Shown here: positions 2,233-49,970 of the stretch, piece by piece
Position numbering within the stretch: position 1 is the first letter of the stretch
Layout: every line of letters starts with the position of its first letter
Source: Ceratodon purpureus
Lineage: Eukaryota > Streptophyta > Bryopsida > Pseudoditrichales > Ditrichaceae
Assembly (NCBI GenBank): GCA_014871385.1
Contig: CM026427.1
Span: 11,842,430 to 11,906,429 of the forward strand
Length of the DNA stretch: 64,000 nucleotides
Direction of reading: 5' to 3'
Translations under genes and position numbers: made by a program
The notes under the pieces: model-generated
Seen by the model: only the letters and a program-made list of their open reading frames with translations
Database searches by the model: none
What the model was told of the DNA's origin: nothing

Positions 2233-2242
2233 CTTGAATAGT

Positions 2243-14784: not shown

Positions 14785-14794
14785 ACTATTCAAG

Positions 14795-17067: not shown

Positions 17068-17079
17068 AACCCCGGGAGA
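17068..17079. repeat. Target-site duplication, left copy
   Basis: AACCCCGGGAGA, repeated at 34793-34804. The uninterrupted site (...GGAAACCCCGGGAGACTATT...) survives in reverse at about 46.92 kb. The last base is ambiguous with the element's AT-repeat tail. Confidence 0.95.
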
Positions 17080-17091
17080 TATATATATAGA
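17080..17091 (-). repeat. 3' tail of the LINE, AT dinucleotide repeat
   Basis: On the sense strand the element ends ...GTTATCTATATATATA directly before the target-site duplication. Many LINEs end in a short microsatellite instead of poly(A), and this one appears to be of that kind. Confidence 0.8.
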
Positions 17092-17914
17092 TAACTCTGG
17101 TAAAATTTTTACCAGCGTGAATAAAGGGCCCGTTAATCTGTAAGAATGCTGTTTGTAGGCCGTGTGGCCTACTCAGACTCTTCTAAGATTTAATGCCCCC
17201 TTTCGGAGGTGGGCTCTGTTGTGACTTGTTTCGATATTATTTTTATGAACCGACCATGACCGTTTTTGGATAAGTTATGTGTGATGGTGTGTTATAGTCA
17301 CCCAGAGTTGTTGGGTATATTGGTTGGTGTTGCTTGAATGGTACGCTCTGGGAGTGTAGCCGTCTGGGTTCGAGTCATGTTGAAGACTTGGATGAGTGAA
17401 TTCGGTACTTTGCTAGTGGGAGCTGGTAGGAAAATTGAGCCCTCTAATCCTTTGTGACAATTGGTGCTATTCGGAATGAGCTATGTTTCTGTGTTTAATA
17501 AATTCTGTTTCTGTTCTTTTTTAGTAGTATTTTGTTTAGTTTGGGCACGTGGTGTTTGGAAAATTTTTTGGAGATGTCCCATATGGTTTGTGTTTAGTTG
17601 TTTTGGTTGGGTATATGTATGTGTGTTTTCTGTGTGGTGTATGCCAATGCCAGTACATTACTTATGGGGGTCACAATGGTCAGTGATCAGTTTGTGTGAG
17701 ATTATTGCGGTTTCCAGTGCTTCGATCCCGTGGACTTGTCTTCTCACATGGGTGCGGGGGAGTGGGGTATGTGTTGGTATTTGGCACTTTTGTATGGTTG
17801 TTTTGTGTGTTTTGGGGTTGTGTTTTGAGGTGGTATATAGGGTTTGGTTTTTGTGTTTTGTGTTCTAGTTGGGTTTTGTCTTTTCTGTGTTTTCCTGTGT
17901 TAGGTGTTTTTGAG

Positions 17915-20617
17915 ATGGATCTGTCGAAGTTTGGAGGTCAGGGTGTTCAAGTTGGTGGTGGATCTGAGTCTTCCGAAGTTCCTGATGAGCAAACAGAGAG
18001 TGTAAGGGAGGATTTCCCAGTTGTGGAGGGTTTGGATGGACGGGCGCGTACTTTTGTTTTCTTGTTTCATGAGGAACATGTGGCTGGAGCGGTTGGAGTT
18101 CGGATATATGGAGGGTATTTTACCGAAGGAGAAGTGAGTGTGCGTGCGATGGAGCATCATCCTTCTACACCGAGTTTGATGAGGACAACGCTGGATATTG
18201 TTGGTCACTGGGGTTTTGCTGGGATTTCGCCAGTGCCAATGATACAATTTTTTCTAGCATGTATTCGTCAGTGTTTTGGACACTAGGTGATTCTGTTTTG
18301 TTTACGGAATTTTGGTGATACTTTTTATGATATGTAATTTATGCGGTATTTTAGTAAAGTTTATGTTTTATTTGAGGCTTGGATATTTTTGTATTGATGT
18401 GTTTGTGTTTTTCTAGCTTTATATGTGGAGTAGTGTTGGTTTTATCTTTTTATGTTTTTTAGATAATTGTGGTTTTGTGTATTTTTGGAAAGAATTTGAG
18501 TGAGGTAGTAATTAGGTGGTATGTTTTATTTTGGATTTTAGTTAGTTTTGGGGTTAGTTTGTGTAATTTTGTGATTTTGAAGTTTTAAGGTGGAAATGGT
18601 GTGTGATTTGTGATGTTTTAGGTATGTTTTGGATGATGGTGATTAGACTTTTTAGGTGGAATAAATGATGAGAGTGGGGGAGGGTGGTTTATGCATCTTT
18701 TGGAGGCTTTGTATGTTTTATATGGTGTTGGTGTGGGGTTTTGGTATACTTTGTGTTTTATATGTTTTTTTTTGTTTTCAAGATGGTGATGCCGTTTCTG
18801 TCCCCCTGGTCTGGTTGGAAGATGGACAAGTGTCCTGGGCCGGGGGATTTGGTGACTTCAGTCCGTATGTACCGTCGGCGGTTGTGGTGGCGCCCTGAGC
18901 TCCCAGTCTGGAGGTATGCTTATCATTGTCTTCGTGGGTACTATCCGATTGTGCTGGAGACGCCACAGAGCCGAGGGGATTTGGAAGTGTTGTTGCAGTG
19001 GGTTGAGTGCTTCCGACTTCGGCTTGGGTTTCGCCTGCCTCCCTTCCCCCGGGTTTATGCGATGTCCCAGCCAGGCTCCAGTTTTGTTTGGACGAAGCGT
19101 GCGGTGCTAGAGTTGGCTTTCCTGGGGATGGCGACTGGGTTCTTCTGGAGCGTCGAGGATCCTCTGCCGCGTGAGTTATTTTGGAGTTTTGTATTTTGGT
19201 TTTTGTGTTTGTGTTTGGTTTGTTTTGCGGTTTTTAGGATTTGTGGGAGGATGTGTGTGTGTGGGGTATCAGTCAATGTGTTTGATTTTATGCTGGTTGT
19301 GATTGGGGTTTTTTGTTTTGTTTATTGCGTTATTTGATTTTTGGGTCTCTGTTTATTGTGGATGGGGGTTGTTTCTGTGTTTCAGGGGTGATGTTCTTTT
19401 AATGGTGGTGTTTGGTGAGGTGGATGTGAATTGCCTATGATTATGCGGAGATTTTGAGGTGGTTCGGGCCTGTGCGGCGGTGTTTGCTGGTGTTGGTGTG
19501 CTGCTGCTTCGGATGGTTTTGAGATGTTGTTGGATGATCCTGTGCGCCGCTGATTTGGTGTTTGAAGGCAAGGGCAATCTGCGGTATTGTGATTTTGGCT
19601 TTTTTGGGTTTTTAATGTAGGTGGGGTTTATGGTTTGATTATCTTGTTGGTTTTTGGGATAAAGGTGATGTTTGTGTAGGATTTTCCGCAGGTTGTTTGC
19701 TGTTTTTTTGATTAGTTTTATGAAGTTTCTAATGTGGGTATTGTGTGTGTAGCTGTTCCCGATGAGTTACGCATCCGGTATAATTTACCCCCGCTGGCCT
19801 TGGCTTCTCCCTCAGATTCTACATTTGTGTTCCCTTCTCCGTCTGAGGTCGAGGAAGGAGGGGCTGAGATCGGTGTGTTATGGGATTAAGTACGTGTTTC
19901 AGGAGTTTTGAAGTCTGTGCGGTGGAGTGCTGTGTTTGGAGATTTTGGCCAAATTGGGTGGTGGAGGCTGGTTTGCAGAGGGTTGCTACGGGCCTAGGGG
20001 AGGTGTGGAGGTGGAATCAATATTTTCAGTGGGTGATTTCAGGCGGAAGGATTATCTTGGAGCTTTTTGGCTTTACGTTGTGGTGTTGCGGTAGTGGAGA
20101 TTAGTTTCTTCAGGAGGAGTTTTTGGGAGTAGTGTGAGATACAGATATTTGGTTTTAAGCAGGAGTTTGTCGGATTCAACGCTTCTAGGGTTTACTGAAT
20201 TGTTGATTTGTACAGGGATTCTATGTGTATATGGTGCTGTTGGCACTTAGCAGTGATAACTGCTTGTTGTTTTGTAATTTTGTATATGACTTGATTTGGA
20301 GGAGCTTTTTTAATGGAGTTTGTGTATGGGTGAGGGATGGGGATGGTGGAATTCCTTTGGAATCTTGATTGTGCGGTGTGTTGATGTTTTGGAGGGGTTG
20401 TGTGTGTGAGTGGTATGCTGGCTGTGTGTGCATTTGTGAGTATAGTTGGTTGTTCTGTTGTCTGCTTTGTTACTATCCCGGGTACACTTGGAGTGAATTT
20501 TCTAATGTCAGGGAATGGGTTAACTACTGATTTCATGTTGTAGGAGTGGCTAATTGGGCTTTGATTTTTGAGATTACTGCGGAGGAACAGAAGCGTGCAA
20601 ATGTGATAGTATTGTAG
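17915..20617 (+). CDS. Putative spliced gene antisense in the LINE 3' region
   Basis: Islands of balanced composition with protein-like plus-strand frames sit in G/T-rich, intron-like DNA. Island 1: ATG 17915 (MDLSKFGGQG...), in frame to a stop at 18286, with a possible donor GTGAGT at 18134. Island 2: after TTTTCAAG at 18782, frame MVMPFLSPWSGWKMDKC..., ending at a strong donor C|GTGAGT at 19170. Island 3: after GTGTGTAG at 19752, in phase, continuing PVPDELRIRYNLPPL to a stop at 19889, or to a donor at 19872 that joins in phase to 20544-20617 (VANWALIFEITAEEQKR). Phases fit at the island 2-3 and 3-4 joins; the 1-2 join is unresolved. I recognise no family. It lies inside the element and shares its composition, so it is probably an element gene and not a host gene. 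Confidence 0.5.
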
Positions 20618-21290
20618 TGGAGTAACATTCTGTCGCTAATTTTACTCAGTTGTTGATCTTTTTAAATGAGGGTTATTCCAGTGGGGTGCCATGTTCTCCT
20701 TGAGCCTGAGAATGAGCATGTGGTCAAGATGACTCGTTTCTACACTCGTGGCTTGATGAATTAGTTGTTCTAATACTGGGAAATGGCTTTGTGGTGTTTT
20801 GTAGTTTAAGGAATATATTGTTGGAGGGTTGTTTCAGTATGTAATTTGTTCCATATTTGAGTTGCTGAATGCAGAGGGCAATAAAGTTATCACAAATTTG
20901 AAGGATAAGGGAACACTCATATAGATTATTGCATACAAGCATAGCAACTGGGGCATTTATCTTTGACTAAAATGATTGTTTGTACGCTCTTTTGGTTACT
21001 GTCTGAATCAGTGTACCGAATGTTTGTCAGTTTTGTGGTCTTTCTGGGTAGCTGGGTGGTTGTAGTGGTATGTTGTCTGGTGTCATTCGTTTTGTTGTTG
21101 TTTCATCTGTTGTTTTTCATCTATTTGTTTGGATGACTGTTTTTGGGTGCTTTGGAAGTGTTTAACAGTGAGTAAATTTTATCAAATGTGTGAGTTGTTT
21201 TTGAATTTGGACTTTAGTTTTGGGTTTGTAGGGGGGGTAATTTGGTAGTGGGGTGGTGAGTATTTGATTAGCTTATTGTCAAATTTTGGT

Positions 21291-24200
21291 TTAATCATCA
21301 ATTGTTGGTTGGTTATTTTCTAATCTTCTTTTGTTTAGTATGATGTGGCACAAATATTTGACCGCAATTTTGTGTATTTTAATCATGCATTGTTTGATTG
21401 CTTTTGATGGGATTTTTAATTTATTTTTAAGTATGTTTATAGAGGGTAAGTGTATTCCACCACGAGGGCCTGCTGTGAGTATGATTATGGGTGCTGTGTT
21501 CCAGCCCTCATCTTGAATTTGTTGTATGAGTTCTTCATATTTTGCTATTTTTTCAGTGACTTTGTCTGGACTGAATCTGTCATGGCAAAATGTAAATTCT
21601 ATGTATTGGATTATTGTAGATGGGTGTGGGAATTGTGGGGGATCAGATAGATGAGGTTGACCTTGTATACATAGTATGTCGGGTTTTAGTCTTGCGTTAC
21701 AATAGCATCGTCCTTGGCAATGACATGTGATAAGCCAAGTTGGTACTGTATTTTCTTGTGGTTGGTTTTCATATGTGCCTGCGTTCATGTATGTTAAGGA
21801 TCTAGAGTTTTTGTTGGATAGTAGGAGTTTGCGTATTTCCCACACGGCTTTGTTATGTCGATTGCATCTGAGTTTATGAAGTTGGATTTGTGGACATGCC
21901 AGTAGTAGGTGTGGCCATGTGTCTATGTTTTGTAGGCCACATAGGGAGCAGTTGGGATTTGGAAATTGAAGGGGGAAGAAGAGGTTTTTCCGTTGGTTCC
22001 CCATGTATTGGCCGTATCTAAATTTAAGTAATTGTGTGATTTGTGCGTCAGACACTTCAGGGTCTTTCCAAAATTGGTTGGAGAGTTTGTTATCTAGTTC
22101 TTTATTGGATGTCCATTTGGCAATATTAAGGTGTTTTGTTTGTATGGTATTGATTTGTGTGGTGTTAATTTGGTTGGTAAGGTATTGATCAAGGTCTCGT
22201 ATTGGGCCTGTTATGGGGTGGTTGTTTAATTTGGATAGCCAATAGGGTGTGGTATGTGCTCTATGTTGTGAGGTAGTAATTTGTGGGATGTTGTTTCCGC
22301 CGATTTTAGTGCCAATGTGTGCTAGTTTGTCTACTACCTCATTTCCTGTTATTCCGGTGTGTGCTCGGACTTTGTGGATAGTGGTATGGTTTTCACGAGT
22401 TTGTAGTTGTTGGATAATTTCATTTAGTAGTATTTTGTCTGAGTGGTTGTTGTGTTGTGTAGGGTGGTTTATATGTATGTTGATTAGGTATAGACTAGTG
22501 AGACTGTCTGTAAAGATATGGGTATGGTGGGTATTCATTTTAGTTAGGATGAGTGTTTCGAGTATGGCTGTGAGTTCAGCTCTTAATATTCCTTGCAGTC
22601 CTATAAGTCTTTGTGAGATTTGAATATTATGGTGGCTATTATAGATACCATATCCTGCGATGTTGCCTTTGGGTGTACCTGTGATGGTGTCTGTGGTTGG
22701 TGGTTCAAAGGATCCGTCTGTGTAATAATTGTGTTGTGCTGGAAATTTTAGTTTGTATTTTTGGTGGGATTTGGGATATGTATTTATGATGTGTGGATGT
22801 TGGGTGATGGGGTATTTGGGTGTTTTGTGCCATGCTGCGTGTTCTTTGACTTTTGAGTGTGGTGGTGTATTTATTGGTTGCGTGATGGTGCTGTCTGTAT
22901 GTAATAGGCTTTGTATTAGTGTTTTGAGAGGAGTGGTAATGTCTGGGATGGGTGGGTAAAAGTTTTTGTTGTGGATAAAAAGTATTTTGGTGGATAGTGG
23001 TTCAGTCTTGTTGTAGTATTTGGGTAGTCCATGGTGTGCTTCATATTTGAGTGTGTCTGGGAGGAATGTTGCTATTGTGTGAGTGTCTGGAAATTCATTG
23101 TTGGTGAGTGTGTGGTTGGTATACCATGTGGGGTTAGGAAATATTATTATTGTTGTGGAGTTTGGATCTTGTTGGGATGCAAGTCTCGCCCAATGTATTG
23201 CTTGGAGTGTGGCTTGGTGGTTGGGGGGGTGTGCATATCCATTACCTTGCCATTGAAATTTGAATGCGGGTCCTAGAGAGCCAAAGATTTCATCTCTTTG
23301 GTGGATAGAGTGATAGTGTGTGAATTTGGTATTACATGTTAGTGGGTTTGAGAAGTATGAGTGAGTTATATTAAATGTTTGTTGTAGATATTGTATTAGT
23401 TTGGATGGTATGGTATAGTGTTCATTGTTATTTTTTATTTGTTTTGGGTTTATTGGAAGGTGGGTTATATATCTATGAAAGAGCCATAGTATTTCGGTGG
23501 CGAAGTCTTGGATGGGAGGGTTTGTTATAATATGGGTATTTTGTTTAGTTTGTGTAAATTTTTCCCATAGCCATTGGAGTCTAATAGAGGTAATACTTCC
23601 AATGTATTTACCAGTGTTGTCATAGATGTGTGCTAGGGGGGGAATGTTTTGAATAGTTGGTTTATTTGTACATATGTCCAAGTCTGGATTACATTCTTGT
23701 ATTGAAATATGAATGTTGGTCATTTTTTGTGGATTTGAAATTTTTTTTTTGTCTTTTGTTTGTTTTTGAAAGAATTGGGTGTGAATTTTATTTTTTATTT
23801 GTGTGTTTCTTTCATGTGTGATGTGTTGGTGTAGTAGATATAAGTTGTGTGTGATTTGATTTTGTTGTGGTATGTTGAATAATTTTTGTTGTTTGAACCA
23901 TTTAGTAGAGTTTGAGTGGTTGTTTTGACAAAGGAATTTGTAATGATTATTTGTGATGTTTAATAATGTTTCTTTTTGTTTGAGGTATTTATATCTTATG
24001 ATTTTTGTTATTGGTTGGTTGTCATTATTTTCATTTGTATGTTCATCGTTGTTGGGGATGTCGGTATGTGTTGGTGTTAAGGGTGTGTGTTCTAAATCTG
24101 GAATGTTAGTGTATTGTGTCATTAGTGTGTGGGTAGTGGTATTGTCTTGGTGTGTACATTGGTGTTGGCAGTCTATTTTGCATATATGGATTCTTGTACA

Positions 24201-26372
24201 AAATAAGTGTTGTGCTGTGGTAAGTGCGTTTTTGATTATTTTTGGTGTGCTTTTATATTTTTTTAAGAAGTCTTTTTGGCACATTATGGTAGTGTGGTTC
24301 TCTTGGGTGATTTGTGTAATGGATGTGATTTGATAGAGTAGTAGTTTATTTAGGTATTGTTGTTTATTATTTTTTTGGGTAGGAGTTTGAGAGTTCCAGT
24401 GTATGCTTTTTGTCCATTGTTCTTCTAGCGGGGATTGATATAGGTTGAATGGAGTGAGAAGTGATTCTAGGTGAATGTCTTGTTCTCGAAGGATGTTAAA
24501 GGTTCTGGATATTGGTGATCTATGGCATGCATGTGCTGTTAATCTGGGTAATTTATGAGATCCTCCATTTTTTGCTATAATGTAGTTTGTTAGACCTCTG
24601 TATATTGTTCCAAGTCTGCCGTCATCATTGAGAGCTTTGATGAGTTGGTTCCCCAAGCAATTAGCATATGCTTTTAGAAAGGAGAATGCTTCTAGGCCAA
24701 AGTTGTTGTATGGAAGCTGTGTGGCTAGGTTAGGTGTGCTTTGGGGGATGCTGCATATTTTTTTTGTGAGTTGGATAATTAGTTTGTCTAGTTTCTTGAT
24801 TCCAGGGGTGGAGAAGGGGGCTGCGTGGAAGCTATATTCTACTCCTGGGCGTAGAACTGTGTTGGTAATTTTGATTTTTTGTCGGATTGTTGCTGGGCTA
24901 GTGAGTAGTTTGGTGCTTTGGAGTTTTAATTTGTTTGTGGTAGTTTCTTGTTGTAGGTTCCATTTAAGAGATGGGATTAATTGGATGCCGAGGTATGTGT
25001 ATGCCTCATTTTGGTGTAGTACTGGGAAGTGTTGGCTATTGTAGTTGATGTTGTGGCTTTGTAAGAAGGCTTTGAAGGTAGTTGGATTTAGATTGGATTT
25101 ATTTGGGCAGCCTGTGAGGACGCATTTTGTGATGCTAAGGTCCATGCCTGCCCATTTGTTGAATTTTTCAAGTTTATGTATTTGGAGTTGTAAGTTTTTT
25201 ATTTCGTTCGCTAAGATTGCAAGATCGTCTGCATAGGCCGCGGTTGGTATTTCGATGTTGGATGTTTTAAATTTGTATCCCAGGTTTCCTTGTTGAAGCC
25301 AACGTAGTAAAGGTTCGAGGAATATTAGAAATAGGTAGGGGCTTAGTGTATCACCTTGGATGGTTCCTCTTTGGATTGTAACTGGTTTGGTGGTTCCAAA
25401 ATGTTGTCCTGAAAATGATGTGGTGGAGTCTGTGTAAATGTTTCCTATGAGGGAGATGGCTTCGATTGGGTATCCAAGGTCTTCCATAAGTGCTAGGAGT
25501 CTAGCATGGTCTATGGATCCGAATGCATTTTTAAAATCAATGTATAATATGTGTATGTCTTGTTTTGTGAATTTGGCGTCTTCGAGTGCAGCTAATATTG
25601 TTTGTATTTGTCTTGTGGTACATCTTTCTTGTCTGAATCCTTCTTGTGCTTCATTTAAGATTTGATAGTTTTCGCCATAGGAAGAAAGAATTGATGTTAG
25701 TGTACTGGTAAATAGTTTGTAGATAGTATTGGCTAGCGCAATTGGTCTATAGTTTGTGAGATATGTGGGGTCTGATTTTTTATAGAGTAATACAGTTGTG
25801 CTGTGTTTCCAGTATTGGGGTATTTCTTTTTGTAGGTAACATTGTCTAAAAAATAAAAATAGCATGGTATGGAATTGATGGGGTAAGTGTTTGATTATTT
25901 CATTGGGGATGTTATCTGGACCAGGGGCTTTTCCATTTGATAAGTGTTTGAGGCAGAGATCATATGTTTCTTGTGAAAATAAGTTTGTCATTTGTGTATG
26001 GGGTTGTCCTCTTTTTTCTAGGATGAAACCATCTATGTCGTGCCATGGGTATTGTTTGACTAGGCATGTGCATTTGAGTTCATGGTCAGTTGGGTCAGAG
26101 CATGTTGGTACTGTTGGTTTGAAGTTTATTGTTTGTTGTTCATATATTGTGTTGGCTATGTCTTCTGGATGGGTAAGGATTTGGTTTTTTGAGTCTCGGA
26201 TACTGTCTAGTGTTATAGATGTGTCATTTTTAAAGATGGTGTTATGTATTCGTTTTGGGTGTGTATTGAGAAGGTTTCGGTATTTGGCCATGGCTTTTGT
26301 ACAATTTGTGTTAATTTGTTTGTATGTTATTTGTTGTGCTAAATTTTTGGCTTCTTTTGCTTTTGCTGCCAA
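21291..26372 (-). CDS. LINE ORF2c: RT, PCIF1-like, RNase H, CCHC, PD-(D/E)xK
   Basis: 1,693 codons. RT spans about residues 140-520, with motif A LYIDFKNAFGSIDH (D279), IQGDTLSPYLF and the catalytic YADD (380-383). A PCIF1-like domain lies at about 958-1140. RNase H is at about 1213-1355 with a complete set: D1219 (YYTDGS), E1266 (RAELTAI), D1289 (FTDS), H1338 and D1348. The zinc knuckle is C1475-x2-C1478-x9-H1488-x4-C1493, followed by a second Cys cluster (CHCQGRCYC). The C-terminal nuclease has KPD (1563-1565), E1592-F-T, KIAKYEEL and GW...GPRGGIH. There is no ATG near the start; the frame opens only at 26438 and overlaps the end of ORF2b. I therefore regard it as the continuation of ORF2b through a +1 shift at a C6 run. 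Confidence 0.92.
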   Translation of the reverse strand: MAAKAKEAKNLAQQITYKQINTNCTKAMAKYRNLLNTHPKRIHNTIFKNDTSITLDSIRDSKNQILTHPEDIANTIYEQQTINFKPTVPTCSDPTDHELKCTCLVKQYPWHDIDGFILEKRGQPHTQMTNLFSQETYDLCLKHLSNGKAPGPDNIPNEIIKHLPHQFHTMLFLFFRQCYLQKEIPQYWKHSTTVLLYKKSDPTYLTNYRPIALANTIYKLFTSTLTSILSSYGENYQILNEAQEGFRQERCTTRQIQTILAALEDAKFTKQDIHILYIDFKNAFGSIDHARLLALMEDLGYPIEAISLIGNIYTDSTTSFSGQHFGTTKPVTIQRGTIQGDTLSPYLFLIFLEPLLRWLQQGNLGYKFKTSNIEIPTAAYADDLAILANEIKNLQLQIHKLEKFNKWAGMDLSITKCVLTGCPNKSNLNPTTFKAFLQSHNINYNSQHFPVLHQNEAYTYLGIQLIPSLKWNLQQETTTNKLKLQSTKLLTSPATIRQKIKITNTVLRPGVEYSFHAAPFSTPGIKKLDKLIIQLTKKICSIPQSTPNLATQLPYNNFGLEAFSFLKAYANCLGNQLIKALNDDGRLGTIYRGLTNYIIAKNGGSHKLPRLTAHACHRSPISRTFNILREQDIHLESLLTPFNLYQSPLEEQWTKSIHWNSQTPTQKNNKQQYLNKLLLYQITSITQITQENHTTIMCQKDFLKKYKSTPKIIKNALTTAQHLFCTRIHICKIDCQHQCTHQDNTTTHTLMTQYTNIPDLEHTPLTPTHTDIPNNDEHTNENNDNQPITKIIRYKYLKQKETLLNITNNHYKFLCQNNHSNSTKWFKQQKLFNIPQQNQITHNLYLLHQHITHERNTQIKNKIHTQFFQKQTKDKKKISNPQKMTNIHISIQECNPDLDICTNKPTIQNIPPLAHIYDNTGKYIGSITSIRLQWLWEKFTQTKQNTHIITNPPIQDFATEILWLFHRYITHLPINPKQIKNNNEHYTIPSKLIQYLQQTFNITHSYFSNPLTCNTKFTHYHSIHQRDEIFGSLGPAFKFQWQGNGYAHPPNHQATLQAIHWARLASQQDPNSTTIIIFPNPTWYTNHTLTNNEFPDTHTIATFLPDTLKYEAHHGLPKYYNKTEPLSTKILFIHNKNFYPPIPDITTPLKTLIQSLLHTDSTITQPINTPPHSKVKEHAAWHKTPKYPITQHPHIINTYPKSHQKYKLKFPAQHNYYTDGSFEPPTTDTITGTPKGNIAGYGIYNSHHNIQISQRLIGLQGILRAELTAILETLILTKMNTHHTHIFTDSLTSLYLINIHINHPTQHNNHSDKILLNEIIQQLQTRENHTTIHKVRAHTGITGNEVVDKLAHIGTKIGGNNIPQITTSQHRAHTTPYWLSKLNNHPITGPIRDLDQYLTNQINTTQINTIQTKHLNIAKWTSNKELDNKLSNQFWKDPEVSDAQITQLLKFRYGQYMGNQRKNLFFPLQFPNPNCSLCGLQNIDTWPHLLLACPQIQLHKLRCNRHNKAVWEIRKLLLSNKNSRSLTYMNAGTYENQPQENTVPTWLITCHCQGRCYCNARLKPDILCIQGQPHLSDPPQFPHPSTIIQYIEFTFCHDRFSPDKVTEKIAKYEELIQQIQDEGWNTAPIIILTAGPRGGIHLPSINILKNKLKIPSKAIKQCMIKIHKIAVKYLCHIILNKRRLENNQPTIDD
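21438..21740 (-). other. C-terminal PD-(D/E)xK restriction-like nuclease domain
   Basis: Residues about 1545-1645 of ORF2c. After a Cys-rich cluster comes KPDIL, 26 residues later IEFT, then EKIAKYEEL, GW and AGPRGGIH. This spacing of PD...E-x-T...K-x2-KY...GW...G-x-RG is the signature of the nuclease that follows the CCHC motif in R2/CRE-type LINEs. The E-x-T instead of E-x-K, with lysines further along, is a known variant pattern. The PD-to-E distance is longer than the 12-14 residues quoted for R2. Confidence 0.7.
22953..23501 (-). other. PCIF1/CAPAM-like methyltransferase domain inside the LINE
   Basis: Residues about 958-1140 of ORF2c, between RT and RNase H. Hallmarks in order are: an aromatic-rich helix (EILWLFHRYI), YFSNPLTC, FGSLGP (1030-1035), GYAHPPN (HPP at 1048-1050), TIIIFPNPTWY, then FLPDTLKYE and STKILFIHN. 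The same string of blocks (FxSPLxC, FGSxGP, NPPF, IVFIPEW, LPxxxxEY, TxxLFL) characterises PCIF1, the enzyme that N6-methylates cap-adjacent adenosine. The catalytic NPPF box reads HPPN here. His is CAC, one change from Asn AAC. The fold may be kept with altered or lost catalysis. The alignment is from memory and by eye. Confidence 0.72.
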
Positions 26373-26397
26373 TATATTTATCCAATTTTGTGTGTTA

Positions 26398-28566
26398 TTA
26401 TGTAAGGGTGGGGGGTGGTGTGTTTTTGGAAGGTTGAGTCATGTTTCTGATGTGTGGATGGGTTCTCCATTGTGTGTTATGTGTGATAATGTATATCATT
26501 TTTCTTAATGAATGGTAGTTTAGGAGATGTTTTTTCCATTGTTTTTGTAGTTTTCTTGGTAGATATCCACCTTGTTTTTTGGTTTTTTCAGTAAGGTTTG
26601 GATATGGTTTTGTTGTGCATGTGTCTGTTATGCATTCTGTAATAGTTTTTATTATTGTTTTTAGGTGTTTGCATGAATTTTCCCATGTTTGTTTATTTTG
26701 TATTTCATTAATTTGGAGTGTGTGTGTCAAGCGTTCTATTTTGTTGTTGGATTTTTCTAAAAATAAGTTTTGAAAGTTTTGAAGTTGTTCTGGAGAGATG
26801 GGGTTTGATAGTTTGGTAGGAGGTTGAATGTAAGTAGGAGTTGGTCTGGCAATTAGTGTGTTTTGTGGAATATGAAGTTGTGTGGGGAAGTGATCTGAAT
26901 TTTGTATGTTTTCGAGGTTGGTTGTGCTGGTGTACTGTGTATTGTTGGTATCATTGGTGTAGAATCCATCGATTAGGCTAGTGGCTGTGTAGTTGAGGCC
27001 ACCTTGTCTAGTATAGTGTGTGTTTGTTGGGATATAAGTTAATTTTAATGTTTGAGTGAAATGTTGCCATTGTTTGTCTTTATTGGTGGGGGGTGTGTGT
27101 TTTTTGTTAAAGTCTCGGCCAATCATTGCAATGTCACGATTATAGTCTCCACTCATAATTGTGATGTATTGTGGTTTGAGTGAAATTTGTTTAGTGATTT
27201 CGTTTTGAATATGGGGGATGAGTTGGAGATCTTCAAGATGTGATGGCATATAAAGGTTGATGAGTAGTATGCTGGTGAGGGGTTTGTTTTCTATGGTGAT
27301 GATTTGAAGGTAAGGTGAAATGATTGCTGGACTTGGAATTTTATTTATATTACCAATGTGTGTATATGTTTTATGTATCATTGTGAGTAGTCCTCCTCTT
27401 GATGGGGTATATGGTAGGTATGGACGTTTTGCACATATTGTTGCAGAGTTTGTGTTGTTGAATATTAATGTATAGTCTGGGAATAGTCTGTTTAGGTATT
27501 TAGTGGATTTTGTTGTTGAGAATTTTGTTTCTTGTAGATGTATGATGGCTGGTGTTTGGTCTTGGTTTTGGATGAGTTTGTGTAGTCCAGGAATTGCTGT
27601 ATTGAGTGATCCTACATTCCATGTAATAATTTGGGTTTTTGTTTGTGTGTATTTATCATTCTGTGTTGTTGGGGGGGGTGTGTTAATGTGTGTGTTTTGT
27701 GTTTTGTGTTGGTAACCTATAATTGGGTCTCGGCATTTTAGTGTTTCTTGGATAAGTTGTAGAGGTAGGTAGGGAAATTTGTTTTGGATGTCGCGGGTGT
27801 TAGGTGGAGGGTTTGTGTAGATATATGTATATATTTCTTTGTTGATAGTATGTTGTGGGTTAATAATGTCTTTATTGTTTTCAAAGAAGATGTGTAAGGG
27901 GTCGATTGGGCCAAATTGAATGGTTTTGGATATTGAGAGTTTATTTAGTTTGTTAAGGATTTTTGTCCATTTAGGGGTTCTATGTGTATGAATATATGCT
28001 TCGCATATGTCAATTGTAGGACCTATGGTAATGATGAATCGAAATAGTATGTGTTGGGGTGCATATTGTGCTAATGTGAGACATTGATTTGCTAGATTTG
28101 GATGGGTAGTAGTACTATGGGTGTGTAGGATGTGATTTGTGTTTAAAAAGGGGGAAAACGGTTTTGCTAAGTGTTTGTAGGGAGAGGTAAGTCTTATTGT
28201 GTTAGGGTAAAAATATTTTTTTTGTCTAGCAATATGGGCTTTTGGTAGATTTTGTGTAATGTGGTTAATGGGGCCAGGGTTACTTTCTATATCGCCACAT
28301 TGTTTTAAGAATAGATGGTTTTGTGGGGGTATGTATGTGTTATAGAAGAGTATTTTTTGGTTTATGATGTGATTATGTGTTTTGTGTTGGAGTAATTGGT
28401 GTTTGTGTTTTTTGGATGGTGTATTTGTTTTTCTTTTGGGATTTTTTTGGAATATTGTGGATTTATTGGTGGTGGTTGTTGATGTTGTTGTTGTTGTTTT
28501 TTTTGAGGGATGAAGATTGTGATTTTGGATGAATATGGGTGTAGGTGTCCATAGATCGTGGGGCAT
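26398..28566 (-). CDS. LINE ORF2b: 2A motif and APE endonuclease
   Basis: 722 codons. The N-terminus is basic and Thr-rich, then LFLKQCGDIESNPGP (2A, ending at residue 99). An unassigned segment (100-310) follows, including a possible winged-helix-like stretch. The APE/exonuclease III-type endonuclease is at about 312-565, with its catalytic set in order: ITWNVGSLN (N317), LQETKF (E346), NLYMPS (Y439), SGDYNRD (D474, N476), SLIDGFY (D533) and NSDHFP (D558, H559). This enzyme nicks target DNA to prime reverse transcription. The frame ends at TAA 26400-26398, just past a C6 run where a +1 shift would enter the RT frame. Upstream, the frame is open only from 28632, overlapping ORF2a across a C11 run. 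Confidence 0.9.
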   Translation of the reverse strand: MPHDLWTPTPIFIQNHNLHPSKKTTTTTSTTTTNKSTIFQKNPKRKTNTPSKKHKHQLLQHKTHNHIINQKILFYNTYIPPQNHLFLKQCGDIESNPGPINHITQNLPKAHIARQKKYFYPNTIRLTSPYKHLAKPFSPFLNTNHILHTHSTTTHPNLANQCLTLAQYAPQHILFRFIITIGPTIDICEAYIHTHRTPKWTKILNKLNKLSISKTIQFGPIDPLHIFFENNKDIINPQHTINKEIYTYIYTNPPPNTRDIQNKFPYLPLQLIQETLKCRDPIIGYQHKTQNTHINTPPPTTQNDKYTQTKTQIITWNVGSLNTAIPGLHKLIQNQDQTPAIIHLQETKFSTTKSTKYLNRLFPDYTLIFNNTNSATICAKRPYLPYTPSRGGLLTMIHKTYTHIGNINKIPSPAIISPYLQIITIENKPLTSILLINLYMPSHLEDLQLIPHIQNEITKQISLKPQYITIMSGDYNRDIAMIGRDFNKKHTPPTNKDKQWQHFTQTLKLTYIPTNTHYTRQGGLNYTATSLIDGFYTNDTNNTQYTSTTNLENIQNSDHFPTQLHIPQNTLIARPTPTYIQPPTKLSNPISPEQLQNFQNLFLEKSNNKIERLTHTLQINEIQNKQTWENSCKHLKTIIKTITECITDTCTTKPYPNLTEKTKKQGGYLPRKLQKQWKKHLLNYHSLRKMIYIITHNTQWRTHPHIRNMTQPSKNTPPPTLT
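28270..28299 (-). other. 2A ribosome-skipping motif (CGDIESNPGP)
   Basis: Residues 90-99 of ORF2b, preceded by HLFLKQ. It matches the D(V/I)ExNPGP consensus with the usual leucine-rich run-in and the C-G pair. 2A makes the ribosome skip the final Gly-Pro bond, so the upstream part would be released as a separate protein and the APE-RT polyprotein would begin with proline at 28272. 2A motifs are established in several animal and trypanosome LINEs. Confidence 0.93.
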
Positions 28567-28597
28567 GGGTTTTCTAAGACCGTGGGTTCGGTGTGTC

Positions 28598-30679
28598 CTA
28601 ATACCGTGGGTTTTGGGGGGGGGGGTTTGGGACTAGGGTTTGGCTGGGGTTTGTGCAGTTTGTTTGTTGTGTTTTGTGTGTATTTTTGTTTTGTTTTTCT
28701 GTCTGTGTGCGTGGGTTTGTTTGGGGTGGAGGTTTGGGGGAGGATGGCAGTGTACGTGTTTGGTTTTGGTTTTTAGCGGACTTTTTTGTGGAGATGGGTT
28801 GGTTGTGGCTCCGGGGTTGGAGGGACAGTAGTGGGGTCGGGTATTTGCTGTATGTGGGTTGCGGTTTTTGTGTTAGGGGGAAATGAGTTGGGTTTTGTTG
28901 TTTTTTAAAAAGGGTGTTTATGTGTATGGTTTTTATATTTTGGTTGGTTTTTGTATCTAGTTGCGGTGTTGATTGAAGTTGGAGGGTTTTATGTTTTGTG
29001 GATCGGGTTGGAAATGTTTTAATTGGTTTTATTATGGTTTTTGATTGGGAATGTGTTTTGCTGTGGGGCCGGGGTAGGGGGTATTGTTTTAGGGGTGTAG
29101 AATGGTGAGTATGGGTTTGAATTGGGGGTTTTGTAATTGTTTTTGTGTCTGGGGATGGTTTGGTGGTGTATGTTTTGTGGTATGGGTTTTTTTGGTGGGG
29201 TGAATTAGGTCTGTGTTTCGGGAGATGGTGGGTTATAATTTGAAGAGTCTGGGAGTGGTGTGAGGTTGAGTGTTTGTTGGTTGGGGATTTGTGTAAAGGG
29301 TGGTTAATGTAAATGCTGATTTGGGGGTAGTAAGGGTGGGTTTGTAGAAAGATCCAGATTTTGCGGAGTTTGTTTGTAGTCGGGTTTGGTTGGGCTGGGT
29401 TAGGGTTTTTGGAGTTGGTGTGTTTGGGGTTTGGATTGTGGGCGGGTTGGTGTAGGTGTTGTGTGTGTGGGATATGTGAGTTTTTATTTGTGGGGGATAT
29501 GAATGTATAGGCGGGAGTTGTGGGATTTCGGGGCATGTGGATTGTGTGTTGTGTGGATTCTATTTTAGTATGGTGCTGTTTTGTTTTATTTTGATTTGGT
29601 TGAGGTGTGTGTGGGTGGTGGTGTTTAATTTTTGGGGGTGGATTGTGTGTTTGAATATGTGGTTTGAGTAATTTCCAGATTGATGGTTGTGGGCCCGATT
29701 TTGTATTTTTTGGTTTCTGCTTTTGAAATTTGTTGAATAATGCATTGTGTTGATGTGTTGGATGATGGTGGTTTGGTTCTGCGTGGAAGGTTAGGAATTT
29801 GCCTGTGTTTGTGTCGTGTAGTAATTTGGAGGGGTTTTGTTTAATATTTTCGTTTAGTTGGTTGGCTTTGCTTAGGTTCGGTGTGTGGGTCCTATTTCGA
29901 CGCGGTATTGTGGGGTTGATTTGGAGCTGGTGGGGTTTTTTTGACAAGGTTTGTTTTTTATATGCGTGGATTGTTGTTGTAATGTTTTGGCGGTGTGTAG
30001 GATCGATTTGGTATGGGTATAGAGAGAGTGTCAGAAGTTTTGTTGTGTAACAGGGTGTAAGGTGTGGGTTGTGTGTGTGTACTCGTTCTAAGTTTAGGTT
30101 AGGATTCTGAGTTTGGAGGGTGGATTGAGGGGATACTATTTTGTGTGATTGGTGCGCAGGTTTGTGGAGCTGGTTTGTTGCGTGGCAGTTTTGGCGGTGA
30201 GTGTTTTGGATCCATTTATGATGTGTTTGTTCGTGGTTGTGTTTATTGGGGGCGGTGTGATGGTGTGTGTTTTGTTGTTTATGAATAGAGGTTGTTTGTG
30301 GATTTTGTATTGTAGTGATTCGGTGGGATGTGTGGGGGTTTTGAGTGGGATGTGATAAATCTGGGCTTGTGAGTGTGTGGGGTGGATGTATGTTAGGGTT
30401 TGGGTGTTTTGTGTTTTGATTATGAATTTGATGTATGTTAGAAAGGACTCGGGTGGGATCTGTGAGATATGGGAAAGGGAGGAGATATATTCCGCATGTG
30501 TTGTTTACAAGAGCAGTTCGTAAAGATACTGCTGGGGTGGAATCAGCTGCCCAGGGATTTGCGATTGTCTGATTTCTAGACATAAGAACGGAAAAAGGTA
30601 CCGTAGGTTGTGGTACTAATGTAATTCTATCTTTTGTGTTCGCGTGTGTGTGGGGGGGCCGTAAGGTTGTACTACACAT
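28598..30679 (-). CDS. LINE ORF2a: His/Thr/Pro/Asn-rich N-terminal extension
   Basis: 693 codons without a stop, beginning at an ATG that overlaps the ORF1 stop (AATGTGTAG). The first 90 residues are fairly ordinary (PFSVLMSRNQTIANPWAADS). The rest is dominated by His, Thr, Pro, Asn, Gln and Lys, as expected from its extreme C/A-rich coding strand. I see no domain. It ends inside a C11 homopolymer region, where a +1 shift continues into the 2A-APE frame, so it is probably the N-terminal part of a roughly 3,100-residue ORF2 product, cut off by 2A. The role is unknown; it may be a disordered nucleic-acid-binding region. Confidence 0.6.
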   Translation of the reverse strand: MCSTTLRPPHTHANTKDRITLVPQPTVPFSVLMSRNQTIANPWAADSTPAVSLRTALVNNTCGIYLLPFPYLTDPTRVLSNIHQIHNQNTKHPNPNIHPPHTLTSPDLSHPTQNPHTSHRITTIQNPQTTSIHKQQNTHHHTAPNKHNHEQTHHKWIQNTHRQNCHATNQLHKPAHQSHKIVSPQSTLQTQNPNLNLERVHTHNPHLTPCYTTKLLTLSLYPYQIDPTHRQNITTTIHAYKKQTLSKKPHQLQINPTIPRRNRTHTPNLSKANQLNENIKQNPSKLLHDTNTGKFLTFHAEPNHHHPTHQHNALFNKFQKQKPKNTKSGPQPSIWKLLKPHIQTHNPPPKIKHHHPHTPQPNQNKTKQHHTKIESTQHTIHMPRNPTTPAYTFISPTNKNSHIPHTQHLHQPAHNPNPKHTNSKNPNPAQPNPTTNKLRKIWIFLQTHPYYPQISIYINHPLHKSPTNKHSTSHHSQTLQIITHHLPKHRPNSPHQKNPYHKTYTTKPSPDTKTITKPPIQTHTHHSTPLKQYPLPRPHSKTHSQSKTIIKPIKTFPTRSTKHKTLQLQSTPQLDTKTNQNIKTIHINTLFKKQQNPTHFPLTQKPQPTYSKYPTPLLSLQPRSHNQPISTKKSAKNQNQTRTLPSSPKPPPQTNPRTQTEKQNKNTHKTQQTNCTNPSQTLVPNPPPQNPRY

Positions 30680-33101
30680 TGCTGATGTTGTCTTTTGTGT
30701 AATATGGGTTGGGTGCAGATGTCCCTCCTGAGTGGGCCGAGGATGAACCGAGGCGGTGCTGGGTGGGGATCTTGGCTATGTTGTGTGCGGATGTGCTTTT
30801 GGTGGAGGCCTCAGTGTTGAGCGCTGCTGGTGCTGGTTTGTAGTGGGCCGGTTGTCCAATGTGGGGGAATGTTGAGGGGTCTGAGTGGGGGTATGTGATC
30901 AGGTTGGGTTGGGTGTAGTGTGATGGTGCGGGGTGGGTGATAGTCATGGCCATGGTGGGGTTTTGTGTTAGGAGCGGGTTGTGGTTGTAGTGGGTGGGTT
31001 GGGGGTATGTGGTGGGGATTGGTTGGTAACCTGGGGGGGCTATCGCGGAAAGGCTGTTCTGGAGTCCAGAAGTAAGTCCGTGAATGCTGTTAGACATTCC
31101 TCCGAAGGCTGCCGATATCTCGGCCAAGGAATGAAGCATACGGGTCTGGGACTCTTGGATGCCAAGCCTAACATCTTGCATCTTGCCTTCTAGCGAGCTC
31201 TCTGTCTGGTGGACTATAGATTTTTCTAATGTCTGCAGCCTATTTTCTAGTCTGATCTCATGTGCCTCAAAGCATTGGGTGATGTCCGATGTTTTGAGTG
31301 CATGTGTTTGGACGTTGCTAAGCATTTCTACGGTTTCAGCCATAGCTTGGGGGGTGGTGGTCTCTGGGATGGCTGCGACTGCTGCAGATTTTTCTGGTCC
31401 ATTGGTACTCTTCCTGTGAGGTTTGAAGTAGATGAGTTGGCCGAGTAGTTGCTTGGGTTTGGCCTTGCTCCAGTTGCTGTATACTGTGGCGTTTGATAGT
31501 TGTATGTATGCTATGCCATCATGCCTCAGCTTCTCGTCGTCCTTTGCAGCACCAAAGGAGATGTCAAGAATGTTAGCGGCCCCTATGAGCGAGTTGATGG
31601 CTGTTTTGACTCTGGGTTGTGCCTGATCTATAGATATGTTCGTGATCTGAATGGTAGTGCTAAGCTTGATGTCAGTTGCAGGGATTCGCTCACCTTCCGA
31701 GTGTGATAGTGGTAGGCAGACCATAAGCTTCTCATCGTTGAGTGAGAATGGTCTTGTAAGCAGAGTCTCTCGGGAGGTTGTTGATCCTGTGGTAATAAAC
31801 GCATACTTCTGGTTGATGCTGTGTTTGATGACTTGACTGATCTCCAGTTCATAGCCGTCCAGGTAGCCTTGGCGGGTGAGGTCGCTAAAGACCTGGTTGG
31901 CAGATTTGCCGGAGAGTGCCGGGGCTGTAATGTAAAGCCTGTTTTCGGAGGCTACGAGGTCAAAGGCTTTCTCAGCCTTGCCGATAACATTGGTTTGTAC
32001 GTTGTGGATCAGGAGGGGAAGAACAAACGGTCGTTTGCCTTTGAGAATGTCAATGGCATCCTTCTCTGGGTTGAGGAGATCAACTTTGAGAAACCCTAGC
32101 CACATGTGTGTCTTGGGGTGGACGAAGGCTATGATAGGCTCTCTATATCTGGTGCCTAGCCGGATTTTCATAGTGTCGAATCTCTGGGTGGCTAAGCTGA
32201 GTACTTCTGGTTTGGAGAGATGTTGGTATCCGGTTTCAAATCTAAGGAGGATCTGATGGCCTTTGGAAAGACCTGTGATGGGGTCTACGGGATAGTTTTT
32301 TGGGATTTGGGTGTGGTGCAGGTACTGGCCGGCGGCGGTGTCAGATCGTTCCATGGGAAAGAGGAGCTGGGGGACATGGGGGTAAGCTTTGTCACAATTG
32401 TAGAGTTCTATGGCTTCGGTACGAGGTACACCTATGCTAGCTAGCTGTGCTAAGGTGCGGGTTTCAATGATGGTAGGACTTGCTGAGCTAGTGGCATTTG
32501 CTTCATGAGTTGCAAAACTGAACCACATATCTTCTGTGAAGATGAGGGGCGGTACTAATACTCTGGGTGCTTGGAAGGGATTGACTGGGGTTGGAATGGG
32601 GGGCTGGCAGGGGTGAGGTTCGAGGTGATCTGGGGCAAGGACTGCTACCGAGGTTTGGGGGGGAGCTAGGTGCTGCGATTGGGCTAGGGGGGAATCGATA
32701 TCAAGTGGTGTGTTATGCGGTTTATCTAAGTCAATGGGCATGCCTAGGAGGACAGAGTCTGCAAAGGTGTTGGCGTCAGTGTCTGAATCGCTCATGAGTT
32801 CATCAGGTGGGAGTTGCTCAAGGTAGCTCTCAAGTTTGGCTTTCAGGTTTGCTTTGGCTGTGCTATGCTGCTCTTGATCTATGTCATCTGGCTGGGATTT
32901 GGCTTTCTTTCTGATGCTGGTTTTGGTGGTTTTGGCTGGGGTTAGTTTTTCGGAGACTGATCGACTGATGCACTTGTGACTGAGTCGCTTGAATGTGCGG
33001 GGTGCTACCTGCGCAGACTGGGTAGAGGCGGCCGCACTGAGTCCTGGTTCTTCTTGCCCGACAGGGGCTCTACAGGTGATTTTAACTGTAGCTTTGGTCA
33101 T
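30672..33101 (-). CDS. LINE ORF1: gag-like protein
   Basis: 809 codons from the ATG at 33101 (MTKATVKITCRAPVG). The frame is open upstream to 34814, through the insertion junction, but the first 570 codons are low-complexity and read like leader. The protein has a basic N-terminus (TFKRLSHKC, KTSIRKKAK), an acidic stretch (DELMSDSDTDANTF), and a long globular part with two segments resembling beta-alpha-beta RNA-binding folds (around EKLMVCLPL and IQITNISIDQAQPRV). A probable coiled coil follows (EIRLENRLQTLEKSI...) and then a Pro/Thr/His-rich tail. I find no CCHC knuckle. Order and features fit a LINE ORF1 RNA-binding protein. The RRM suggestion is weak. Confidence 0.72.
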   Translation of the reverse strand: MTKATVKITCRAPVGQEEPGLSAAASTQSAQVAPRTFKRLSHKCISRSVSEKLTPAKTTKTSIRKKAKSQPDDIDQEQHSTAKANLKAKLESYLEQLPPDELMSDSDTDANTFADSVLLGMPIDLDKPHNTPLDIDSPLAQSQHLAPPQTSVAVLAPDHLEPHPCQPPIPTPVNPFQAPRVLVPPLIFTEDMWFSFATHEANATSSASPTIIETRTLAQLASIGVPRTEAIELYNCDKAYPHVPQLLFPMERSDTAAGQYLHHTQIPKNYPVDPITGLSKGHQILLRFETGYQHLSKPEVLSLATQRFDTMKIRLGTRYREPIIAFVHPKTHMWLGFLKVDLLNPEKDAIDILKGKRPFVLPLLIHNVQTNVIGKAEKAFDLVASENRLYITAPALSGKSANQVFSDLTRQGYLDGYELEISQVIKHSINQKYAFITTGSTTSRETLLTRPFSLNDEKLMVCLPLSHSEGERIPATDIKLSTTIQITNISIDQAQPRVKTAINSLIGAANILDISFGAAKDDEKLRHDGIAYIQLSNATVYSNWSKAKPKQLLGQLIYFKPHRKSTNGPEKSAAVAAIPETTTPQAMAETVEMLSNVQTHALKTSDITQCFEAHEIRLENRLQTLEKSIVHQTESSLEGKMQDVRLGIQESQTRMLHSLAEISAAFGGMSNSIHGLTSGLQNSLSAIAPPGYQPIPTTYPQPTHYNHNPLLTQNPTMAMTITHPAPSHYTQPNLITYPHSDPSTFPHIGQPAHYKPAPAALNTEASTKSTSAHNIAKIPTQHRLGSSSAHSGGTSAPNPYYTKDNISNV

Positions 33102-34792
33102 GGCGGAGGTCGTACTACGGGAGTCTACTGTGTAAAGGTGAGTAATGGAGATGGTTGTAGGAAGGGTAGGAGTGGGAGTGAGGTGGTAATATGATAGAGT
33201 TTTTTTGGATCTTGCTATGATGAGGGAGGTGAGGGGGTAATGAGCTGAGGGGAAGAGATGGTATCTTACTGGATTGTGTGTTGCTGTAGGTGAATCGGTG
33301 CTTGAAGTGCTGCAGCTGTTGATTTTCGACGTGAAGTGGGAGTAGTGCTGCTGGGGGCGGTGATAGCTTAAGTTGTGTCCATGCGCGCTGTGGTTGGGAG
33401 GGCGAAGGTTCGGTGTAGCAGAACTGTGGAGGCAGAGGATAGTTAGTGTAGGTAATGTTAAGTCTGTAACGTATTCTGCAAAATAAATTTGATACAAGGA
33501 TATAATTCTGAGTGTATCTGATCTAGCATGTGTACAAAGCCTTGTGATGATGCAAAATGGAAATGGTGATAGGGAAAGAAGGGGGTCTCTGTGTCGACTT
33601 GGTGTTGGCTTGTGATGTCCTGCAGGGGGTGTGAAATGGCTTGTGCGGGGGATGTGAGGTATTCTAGGTGCTATGGTTGTGTGGGGTTTAGATGATGGGG
33701 ATTGGGAGGATAGAGGGTGGGTTGTATGGTGTCTAAGGTAGGGGTGAAATTCTGAGTCTAAGAGTTGGTTGATGGCTGTATGGGGTTGTGTGTGGGAGAT
33801 AGGGGGTGGGAGGAATGGAATTGAGATGCAGTGGGTACTAGAGGTTGGTGGTATGCTACTGTACTTGTGTGGGAGGGCGAGTGTTTGAGATGAGGTAATG
33901 ATGTGAGGTCTGTGGGAGGGGTGTAGAGAGTGGAGGCTGTCAGTGCTAACTGTGCGATGGGTAGAGGGTAGGGGGGGTGAGGGAGTAGGGAAAACACATG
34001 CCTGTTGAAGTGATGTTTGCGTTCGGTGATTGTGTGTGTGAAGTGTAGGGTTTAAGTAGTTTTGAGTTTTGTGTTGGTGAGTGTGTTGTATGGGATATTT
34101 GGAGTGGATATGTTTGGAGAGTATGGGTGTGTGCAGTGAGAAGTGTGCCGAGAGGGTTTGATGGAAGTTAATGTTTGAGGGCTGTTTTTGGAAATGGTTA
34201 GAGATAGTATGTATGGAGTAAATGCGTATATGCGGAGTTGGGTTTGTGAACTGTTGCTTTGCCGGCGTTGCTTGCTGTTGCGTGGGGCATGTTGCTGCTC
34301 CTGGTGTATAAAACACCCACCTGGCCGATAGATTTTTTTTGAGGCGCATGGTGTTGAAAGTCTTGCAATCTGCACTGTTGAGTGTGTCGATGCGGGTGCA
34401 TCTTGATGGCTTGGGCGGCGTTGATACTTCTCCATGTTGCTGTAGAGTGTGGGGTTTGGCTAGCGAGTCTAATTCTAGTCTGTACTTGTCTTGCTGGATT
34501 TGTCTAAAGATGGGCCTGAGAGTGTCTCTCAAATTGTACTGGGAGTAGGCTAGAAGCAGAGGTTTACTATTTCGTCTGCGAACTTCTTCCTGTCGGATCT
34601 GACTGTCTCGAAGGGGTTTCCTATGTGTATCTCCCTGATAATTGCTGTTTGAACGTGGGGGTTGCGATGGCACAAGCCTGTCGCAGAGAACTAAGCCTAC
34701 GGCTACTCTCGGCACCAGACTCTCCATCGCTCCGCAGTTTGCGGTGCTCGCTGCGCTCCCTCCCGCGCGGGACCTCGAAAGGGTGAAGTACC
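33102..34792 (-). promoter_or_regulatory. 5' leader of the LINE
   Basis: About 1.7 kb between the 5' end and the ORF1 ATG. It starts GGTACTTCACCC and has a GC-rich segment with the inverted pair GTCCCGCGCGGGA near 34765, then becomes C/A-rich on the sense strand. No stop occurs in the ORF1 frame, so a longer ORF1 starting at MESLVPRVAVG (about 34730) cannot be excluded. As LINEs carry internal promoters, this is where one would be expected. Confidence 0.5.
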
Positions 34793-34804
34793 AACCCCGG
34801 GAGA
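34793..34804. repeat. Target-site duplication, right copy
   Basis: AACCCCGGGAGA, followed by CTATTACCACTCACTAAGTC exactly as in the empty site. Confidence 0.95.
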
Positions 34805-49204: not shown

Positions 49205-49214
49205 CTTGAATAGT

Positions 49215-49689
49215 CTGCCAACATAAATCGCATCACCACACCATGTCAAAACCCTAAAATCCACCTATACACACTGCCACCACATCCCTACACCCCCAAC
49301 ACTACTGGACATTTAACCAAATGCAATTCAACTCACATTCAACGAAATCACTCTGGAGGATCAAGCGAACTCCAACTCAGCTGCAAAACTAAAACCCTAG
49401 CTGACGCAGCCCTCGTACAAAACAAGAACACGGTGCATCATCTCGCCCAACAAGAAAAATAAACGTGCACGGCAAGAGGAAGACGACAGAAGACAACAGC
49501 CATTTCCCCCTACGACTCGAACAAGCACTGAAACGGCTGCAAATCGACTCTAACACTCCAACCCTATCAAATCGACTCTAACACTCAAACCCTAAGCGGT
49601 TTAGAGAAAATCCAAAACCATGAAAGACAGCGATTGCAGCACAACGAGGGAGCAGCAATGGCAGTGAAGAGCAAGAGGGGGCATCGTAC
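49215..49689 (-). other. 5'UTR intron of eEF1A copy 3
   Basis: Same donor and acceptor as the other copies (CCCCAG|GTACGA, GTTGGCAG|ACTATTC). Confidence 0.85.
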
Positions 49690-49970
49690 CTGGGGTCCTG
49701 GCAGAGCAGGAAGGAGGCGGAGTCGAAGGAGGTGAGCAGCGGCGATGGAGGATTGATGAGGACTGAGGGAGGAAACAACAAGAGACTCCAGCCTATATGT
49801 TGCGTCGCGCTCTGCGAGCTGCGCCGCGCCCCGGGGTCAGGGTTTATGTCTTCTGCTGTCGCGGGAGCCGTCGATGTCGGATCCAACGGACCAGGGCTCT
49901 AACGGTGCGCGCACATGGTTCCCTTGGGCGTTCCCCACTTGCGAGTTTGGCTTTTCAGTTGCTGCCATGC

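Follow-up and report, generated by a model that had tools for sequence, protein, structure and literature searches.

The described protein nearest to the domain reported here is PCIF1/CAPAM, the cap-specific adenosine N6-methyltransferase represented by human (6irv and 6irw) and zebrafish (6irx to 6is0) structures. In the moss Ceratodon purpureus, a PCIF1-like domain lies within the polymerase protein of a retrotransposon, in a window (the whole stretch of DNA that was analyzed) of 64,000 nucleotides from assembly GCA_014871385.1 (contig CM026427.1, positions 11,842,430 to 11,906,429 of the forward strand). The retrotransposon is a long interspersed nuclear element (LINE)-type, non-long terminal repeat (non-LTR) insertion of 17,713 bp on the minus strand (17080-34792), delimited by its target-site duplication (TSD) and by an empty-site paralogue within the same 64-kb window. 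Among described elements, the Dualen group is characterized in PMC4640811 as having both an apurinic-type endonuclease (APE) and a restriction-like endonuclease (RLE), and RNase H is listed there for Dualen/RandI. Insect R1 LINEs with a viral helicase domain likewise have a second open reading frame (ORF2) with a captured foreign RNA-related domain, although, as presented in PMC4686597, the domain is a different one and its position is C-terminal. The element and PCIF1/CAPAM have in common the PF12237 profile, the Rossmann methyltransferase fold, and the blocks F.SP[LV].C and D..FGS.G, whereas the element has AHPx[NDT] in place of the catalytic NPPF box, its preceding helical domain is not recognized, and its domain sits inside a retrotransposon protein. 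A further difference is the WW domain, none of which was found with Pfam in the frames at 21291-26438, 26398-28632, 28598-30775, and 30672-34814 or in the upstream frame of a copy of the element on contig C1.

A preliminary description of the locus had placed a PCIF1-like domain between the reverse transcriptase (RT) and RNase H and had read within it the blocks FSNPLTC, FGSLGP, HPPN, IIIFPNPTW, FLP..YE, and ILFIHN. These blocks occur in that order on the minus strand at 22953-23501 (ORF2 residues 980-1162), and the PF12237 (PCIF1_WW) profile matches between RVT_1 and RNase_H with a score of 47.0 bits, where the curated cut-off is 31.1 (Table 1). The homologous region is wider than the interval first proposed for the domain, extending over 22911-23666 (residues 925-1176); the plus-strand reading of 22953-23501 in the given frame has stops throughout and was discarded. 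By sequence, the nearest solved structures were human PCIF1 (E 1.3e-4) and zebrafish PCIF1 (E 3.8e-3), and a profile built from three relatives gave values weaker than the former (zebrafish PCIF1 1.4e-3, human PCIF1 6.2e-3). The local score against a fragment of zebrafish PCIF1 of 97 amino acids (aa) was 81, which 0 of 1000 residue shuffles reached (maximum 44). The predicted fold of the module is that of the PCIF1 Rossmann methyltransferase, aligned to human residues 417-668; the helical domain that precedes the PCIF1 core is unmatched, the alignment beginning at human residue 417 and the model at ORF2 residue 836. The profile hit and the predicted fold both support the proposal that the element acquired a PCIF1-like domain. 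Fold matches were also obtained to the PCIF1-like proteins of giant viruses (Pithovirus LCPAC101, Tetraselmis virus 1, and Hokovirus HKV1; E 6.5e-11 to 5.8e-9), which are viral proteins of 316-482 aa, unlike the element's embedded domain.

The domain is present in many copies of the element. A PF12237 search of the assembly (362,488,568 bases in 151 contigs) returned 277 candidates, of which 150 were scored; all 150 were above the cut-off and 137 were stop-free, with open frames of up to 3312 aa. A corresponding RT search returned 854 candidates, of which 125 were scored (identity 63-100%), and for 93 of these a PF12237 match is listed some 1.1-1.9 kb further downstream. All seven copies sampled from the other 32, which were chosen mainly for their long open frames, also carry the domain, some in interrupted frames, and no relative without the domain was found among the 100 of the 125 scored RT copies that were examined. 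Metagenome searches added 37 different homologues (P0002 and P0004 to P0039), with a precomputed PF12237 annotation on 28 and, on P0002, P0004, P0005, and P0034, PF12237 together with RNase H; no relatives were found among viral contigs or prokaryote genome contigs. Over 98 aa aligned with PCIF1 of human and zebrafish, family conservation of 90% or more is seen in 17 columns that have the residue of both PCIF1 sequences (F1022, F1029, P1032, C1035, S1044, D1049, F1052, G1053, S1054, G1056, A1069, P1071, A1080, H1082, L1086, I1097, and W1105) and in 18 further columns, including the His at the catalytic position, where one or both of them have a different residue.

Ratios of non-synonymous to synonymous substitution rates (dN/dS) were calculated by the Nei-Gojobori method for the 164 of 861 pairs with an overall dS of 0.1-0.9. 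The ratio was 0.12 for the domain core (N part 0.115, C part 0.122). Upstream, it was 0.093 for the conserved stretch directly adjoining the domain and 0.15 for the more distant linker; downstream, it was 0.28 for the spacer and 0.065 for RNase H. Distances in the domain and in RNase H are correlated (r 0.98), and the RNase H motif TDG[SA] lies downstream of the domain in 42 of 42 open-frame rows. Taken together, these results indicate that the domain has travelled with the element and is constrained, and the substitution ratios show purifying selection on it in a multi-copy family.

The change in the catalytic box is a property of the family. The preliminary description had read the HPPN of the window copy as changed or lost catalysis, and the box is replaced across the family: among loci L001-L070, which represent 70 of the 150 scored PF12237 matches, 66 have His where PCIF1 has its catalytic Asn, one has Asn (NPHN), and one has Tyr, one locus having no alignable site and one an unreliable alignment. 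The commonest tetrad is HPHN (43/70), and NPP[FWY] occurs in 0 of the 68 loci with a readable site. A wider alignment of 77 rows was composed of 41 open-frame host loci, the window copy again, and the 35 of the 37 metagenome proteins that align, and 70 of its rows extend to the box. Position 1 is H in 65 of these rows, F in three, N in one, and Y in one; position 2 is P in 64, L in four, T in one, and S in one; position 3 is H in 46, P in 12, Y in five, N in four, and T in three; and position 4 is N in 53, D in eight, T in seven, S in one, and K in one, with an aromatic residue in 0/70 and NPP[FWY] likewise in 0/70. The F at position 1 belongs to metagenome proteins P0028, P0031, and P0032, which have FPTD or FSTD at the box (GLAFPTD, GLAFSTD, or GLVFPTD against GYAHPxN). 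Judged from these alignments, HPPN is one version of a motif conserved across the family, AHPx[NDT], and not the mark of a single damaged copy. Replacement of the PCIF1 box by NAAF is reported in PMC11506431 to give a methyltransferase-deficient protein, and in PMC9479742 a change of F to H in the Drosophila box is offered as a possible reason for the lack of N6,2'-O-dimethyladenosine (m6Am). From the motif replacement, it is very likely that m6Am chemistry has been lost in the element's domain.

How a LINE protein recognizes its own RNA and completes the 5' end is a long-standing question, and we consider the domain, with a probability of about 0.55, to be derived from PCIF1 and to serve the retrotransposition protein as a binding module that does not methylate. 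A LINE-type element has taken up, early by our inference, the methyltransferase part of an enzyme of the PCIF1/CAPAM type and kept it between RT and RNase H. The module retains the predicted fold and many core residues of PCIF1, and the tetrad NPPF, which methylates N6 of the cap-adjacent adenosine, has become AHPx[NDT], such that m6Am is very probably no longer made. Our hypothesis for the ligand and the step in the retrotransposition cycle is that the module would bind RNA, perhaps the element's own transcript at its capped 5' end, in the leftover nucleotide or S-adenosylmethionine (SAM) pocket, RNA or a capped 5' end being the most natural ligand because of the PCIF1 ancestry; holding RNA during target-primed reverse transcription could allow the 17.7-kb template to be found and copied to its end. 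More tentatively, a PCIF1-derived 5'-end module with a new AHPx[NDT] site might read or newly modify the element's own capped RNA and so couple reverse transcription to complete templates.

Several points count against a non-methylating binding module. According to PMC9479742, the honey bee also lacks m6Am, though its change of F to Y is an unlikely cause, so that activity cannot be read simply from the motif. The 18 conserved columns that differ from one or both PCIF1 sequences show that changes in the pocket extend past the box; with the preceding helical domain unmatched in the model, part of a PCIF1-like cap pocket may be missing; the pairs behind the dN/dS values are non-independent and count the window copy twice; and the His and Asn conserved at the altered box are just as compatible with a new catalytic site. 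That site would belong to an active methyltransferase that acts on another substrate or by another chemistry and marks RNA or cDNA of the element, a reading for which the strong conservation of the altered box (H in 65/70, N, D, or T at position 4 in 68/70) and the retention of PCIF1-like blocks around it, as in a working pocket, can be adduced. N6-adenine methyltransferases have an aromatic residue in the catalytic tetrad, however, and here it is missing in 70/70; position 3 is variable, which is unusual for a catalytic tetrad, and position 1 is F in three metagenome proteins. We regard an active enzyme as improbable, and the earlier suggestion of a cap- or RNA-modifying domain is unsupported as far as an active enzyme is concerned.

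The domain might instead be a purely structural, ligand-free spacer whose fold positions RNase H relative to RT, a minority view that deserves some weight. Its location between the two in the window copy, the RNase H motif that follows it in 42/42 rows, the RT that precedes it in 93 of the 125 RT copies (by listed matches), and a dN/dS higher than that of RNase H (0.12 against 0.065) would all suit such a role, but conservation is not confined to a hydrophobic core and takes in the altered box and the blocks of the ancestral pocket. PCIF1 is a protein associated with the C-terminal domain of RNA polymerase II, from which one could argue for a targeting module through which the retrotransposition protein engages host transcription or chromatin and not RNA. 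The polymerase-binding part of PCIF1 is, however, the N-terminal WW domain as given in PMC7948815, and none was found in ORF2; we hold this reading to be very improbable. Least credible of all is chance resemblance or a decaying passenger: the coding region of the window copy is indeed broken into several frames, yet the Pfam and fold scores, the shuffles (0/1000), the 137 stop-free matches of 150, the dN/dS of 0.12, and PF12237 in 28 of the 37 metagenome homologues all speak against it.

The insertion itself is precisely bounded (Table 1). The features of a LINE are present, namely a reverse transcriptase, a 12-bp TSD, and a (TA)n tail, with no long terminal repeats listed; among the repeats listed for the window, no direct repeats of at least 100 nt have both copies inside the element. 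Flanks 14029-17079 and 34793-34928 together form an inverted copy of the continuous paralogous segment 46796-49970, to which the left flank is identical at 3051/3051 positions and the right flank at 124/124. Because the duplicated flanks show no divergence, the insertion is young.

Table 1. Features of the C. purpureus window, with positions counted from its first nucleotide
Feature	Position	Strand	Basis
Whole non-LTR retrotransposon	17080..34792	-	12-bp TSD and precise empty-site paralogue; joined flanks identical (304/304)
Target-site duplication, copy 1, AACCCCGGGAGA	17068..17079	.	Flank comparison
Target-site duplication, copy 2	34793..34804	.	Flank comparison
Empty-site paralogous segment without insertion	46796..49970	-	Inverted repeats I2 and I6, 100%
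3' end: short hairpin and (TA)n tail on the element's own strand	17080..17113	-	
5' untranslated region and ORF1-like frame (open frame extends to 34814)	30672..34792	-	No Pfam match
Frame upstream of 2A-like site	28598..30775	-	No Pfam match; weak similarity (34%) to matching part of C1 copy
2A-like ribosome-skipping motif (CG)DIESNPGP, before endonuclease	28270..28293	-	Sequence; also in C1 copy (L084)
Apurinic-type endonuclease-like domain (WNVGS, QETK, SGDYN, SDHFP)	26833..27675	-	PF14529, weak
Main ORF2 frame, 1715 aa	21291..26438	-	Open reading frame
Reverse transcriptase (YADD at 25224-25235)	24981..25781	-	PF00078 (RVT_1), ORF2 residues 220-486, E 7e-30
PCIF1-like methyltransferase module, fold-aligned part, ORF2 residues 925-1176	22911..23666	-	
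PF12237 (PCIF1_WW) match, ORF2 residues 973-1112	23103..23522	-	E 2.9e-12
FSNPLTC, aligned with PCIF1 FASPLNC, retained block	23334..23354	-	Alignment
RDEIFGSLG, aligned with PCIF1 TDGYFGSRG, retained block	23271..23297	-	Alignment
HPPN in place of catalytic NPPF box	23220..23231	-	Alignment
RNase H domain	22314..22730	-	PF00075, ORF2 residues 1237-1375, E 1.6e-13
CX2C..HX4C zinc-finger-like motif	21894..21950	-	Sequence; three C and H invariant in three aligned sequences
RLKPDILC...YIEFTFC, PD-(D/E)xK-like motif	21585..21692	-	Sequence; without confirmation by profile or model

Upstream of the RT, the motif CGDIESNPGP, which we take to be a putative 2A ribosome-skipping site, suggests that the upstream protein would be separated from the endonuclease-RT polyprotein. 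The endonuclease-like piece scanned alone matched PF14529 along nearly the whole profile (1-116 of 117; E 1.3e-4) at 22.3 bits, below the cut-off of 27.4; the match was absent from the listing when the whole 744-aa frame was scanned, as it was for the C1 copy, and matches of the piece to exonuclease III were weak (E 0.29-0.36). At the other end of ORF2, CX2C..HX4C and RLKPD...IEF presumably resemble motifs of the restriction-like endonuclease found in R2- and Dualen-type elements, a resemblance that is not confirmed: the ORF2 C-terminus gave no profile match to such an enzyme, and its structure model (predicted local distance difference test score 36) was unusable. Matches to DUF3124, Spore_GerAC, and FMN_bind_2 were weak and below the cut-off, and were set aside. 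The closest solved RTs to the C1 copy were those of R2 (9nl3 and 9dou; E 1.9e-26, over the RT part only). Like Dualen/RandI, the element has APE-like motifs, RT, RNase H, and C-terminal CCHC and PD-(D/E)xK-like motifs; unlike Dualen/RandI as described in PMC4640811, and compared by description only, it carries a PCIF1-like domain. Its layout, in terms of sequence motifs, appears most like that of Dualen/RandI, though we do not assign it there, the RLE and the RT clade not being established.

The coding region of the window copy is split over several overlapping frames (28598-30775, 26398-28632, and 21291-26438), whereas the C1 copy is uninterrupted over the 1877 aa compared, within a reported open frame of 3312 aa. 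Two RT matches, C2:9424449 (a close relative, 97% identical in the RT) and C2:18873507 (69%), have the same frame length of 1715 aa. A broken frame in so young an insertion may reflect a mobilized defective subfamily, frameshifting, an assembly error, or coincidence. Many of the listed domain copies lie on contig C6, which dwarfs the other contigs with 110,524,308 bp (30.5% of the assembly) and is perhaps a sex chromosome; for C. purpureus R40, PMC13120521 gives a genome of 358 Mb with sex chromosomes comprising about 30% of it.

Elsewhere in the window, 100% identical inverted repeats (294-5950 with 11077-16733, and 14029-17079 with 46920-49970) hold three copies of an eEF1A gene, at 889-2292 (minus strand), 14735-16138 (plus strand), and 47861-49264 (minus strand), the first two of which were checked by Pfam; the encoded eEF1A resembles those of land plants. 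These large, identical, eEF1A-bearing repeats are the product of very recent segmental duplication or gene conversion. A Copia-type RT fragment (RVT_2, E 8.7e-23) lies on the minus strand at 5600-6268, and an Rfam scan of the window gave no match.

A search of the assembly with the zebrafish PCIF1 fragment yielded 53 matches at E ≤ 1 (best E 6.8e-4). The best four loci (L078-L081) are all element-like, with AHP[PH][TD] at the box, and no cellular PCIF1 was recognized among these best 4 of the 53 matches, although a multi-exon gene could escape such a search. The plant m6Am enzyme is given as unknown in PMC9100520. Because the matches examined were copies of the element, PCIF1_WW annotations of such genomes and metagenomes need caution. 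Among the titles and abstract openings listed in searches of open-licence PMC papers, we found no description of a PCIF1 domain in a retrotransposon.

In this large and recently active family, a cap-methyltransferase fold has been kept inside a polymerase protein while its catalytic box was swapped for another conserved motif. The domain is a concrete, testable candidate for recognition of the 5' end or cap by a retrotransposon. We know of no earlier transposon-encoded cap reader or writer of a PCIF1-derived kind, and the element, if it does read or modify its own capped RNA, would be the first. As a binding module, it would offer a natural example of the PCIF1 fold used without m6Am chemistry.
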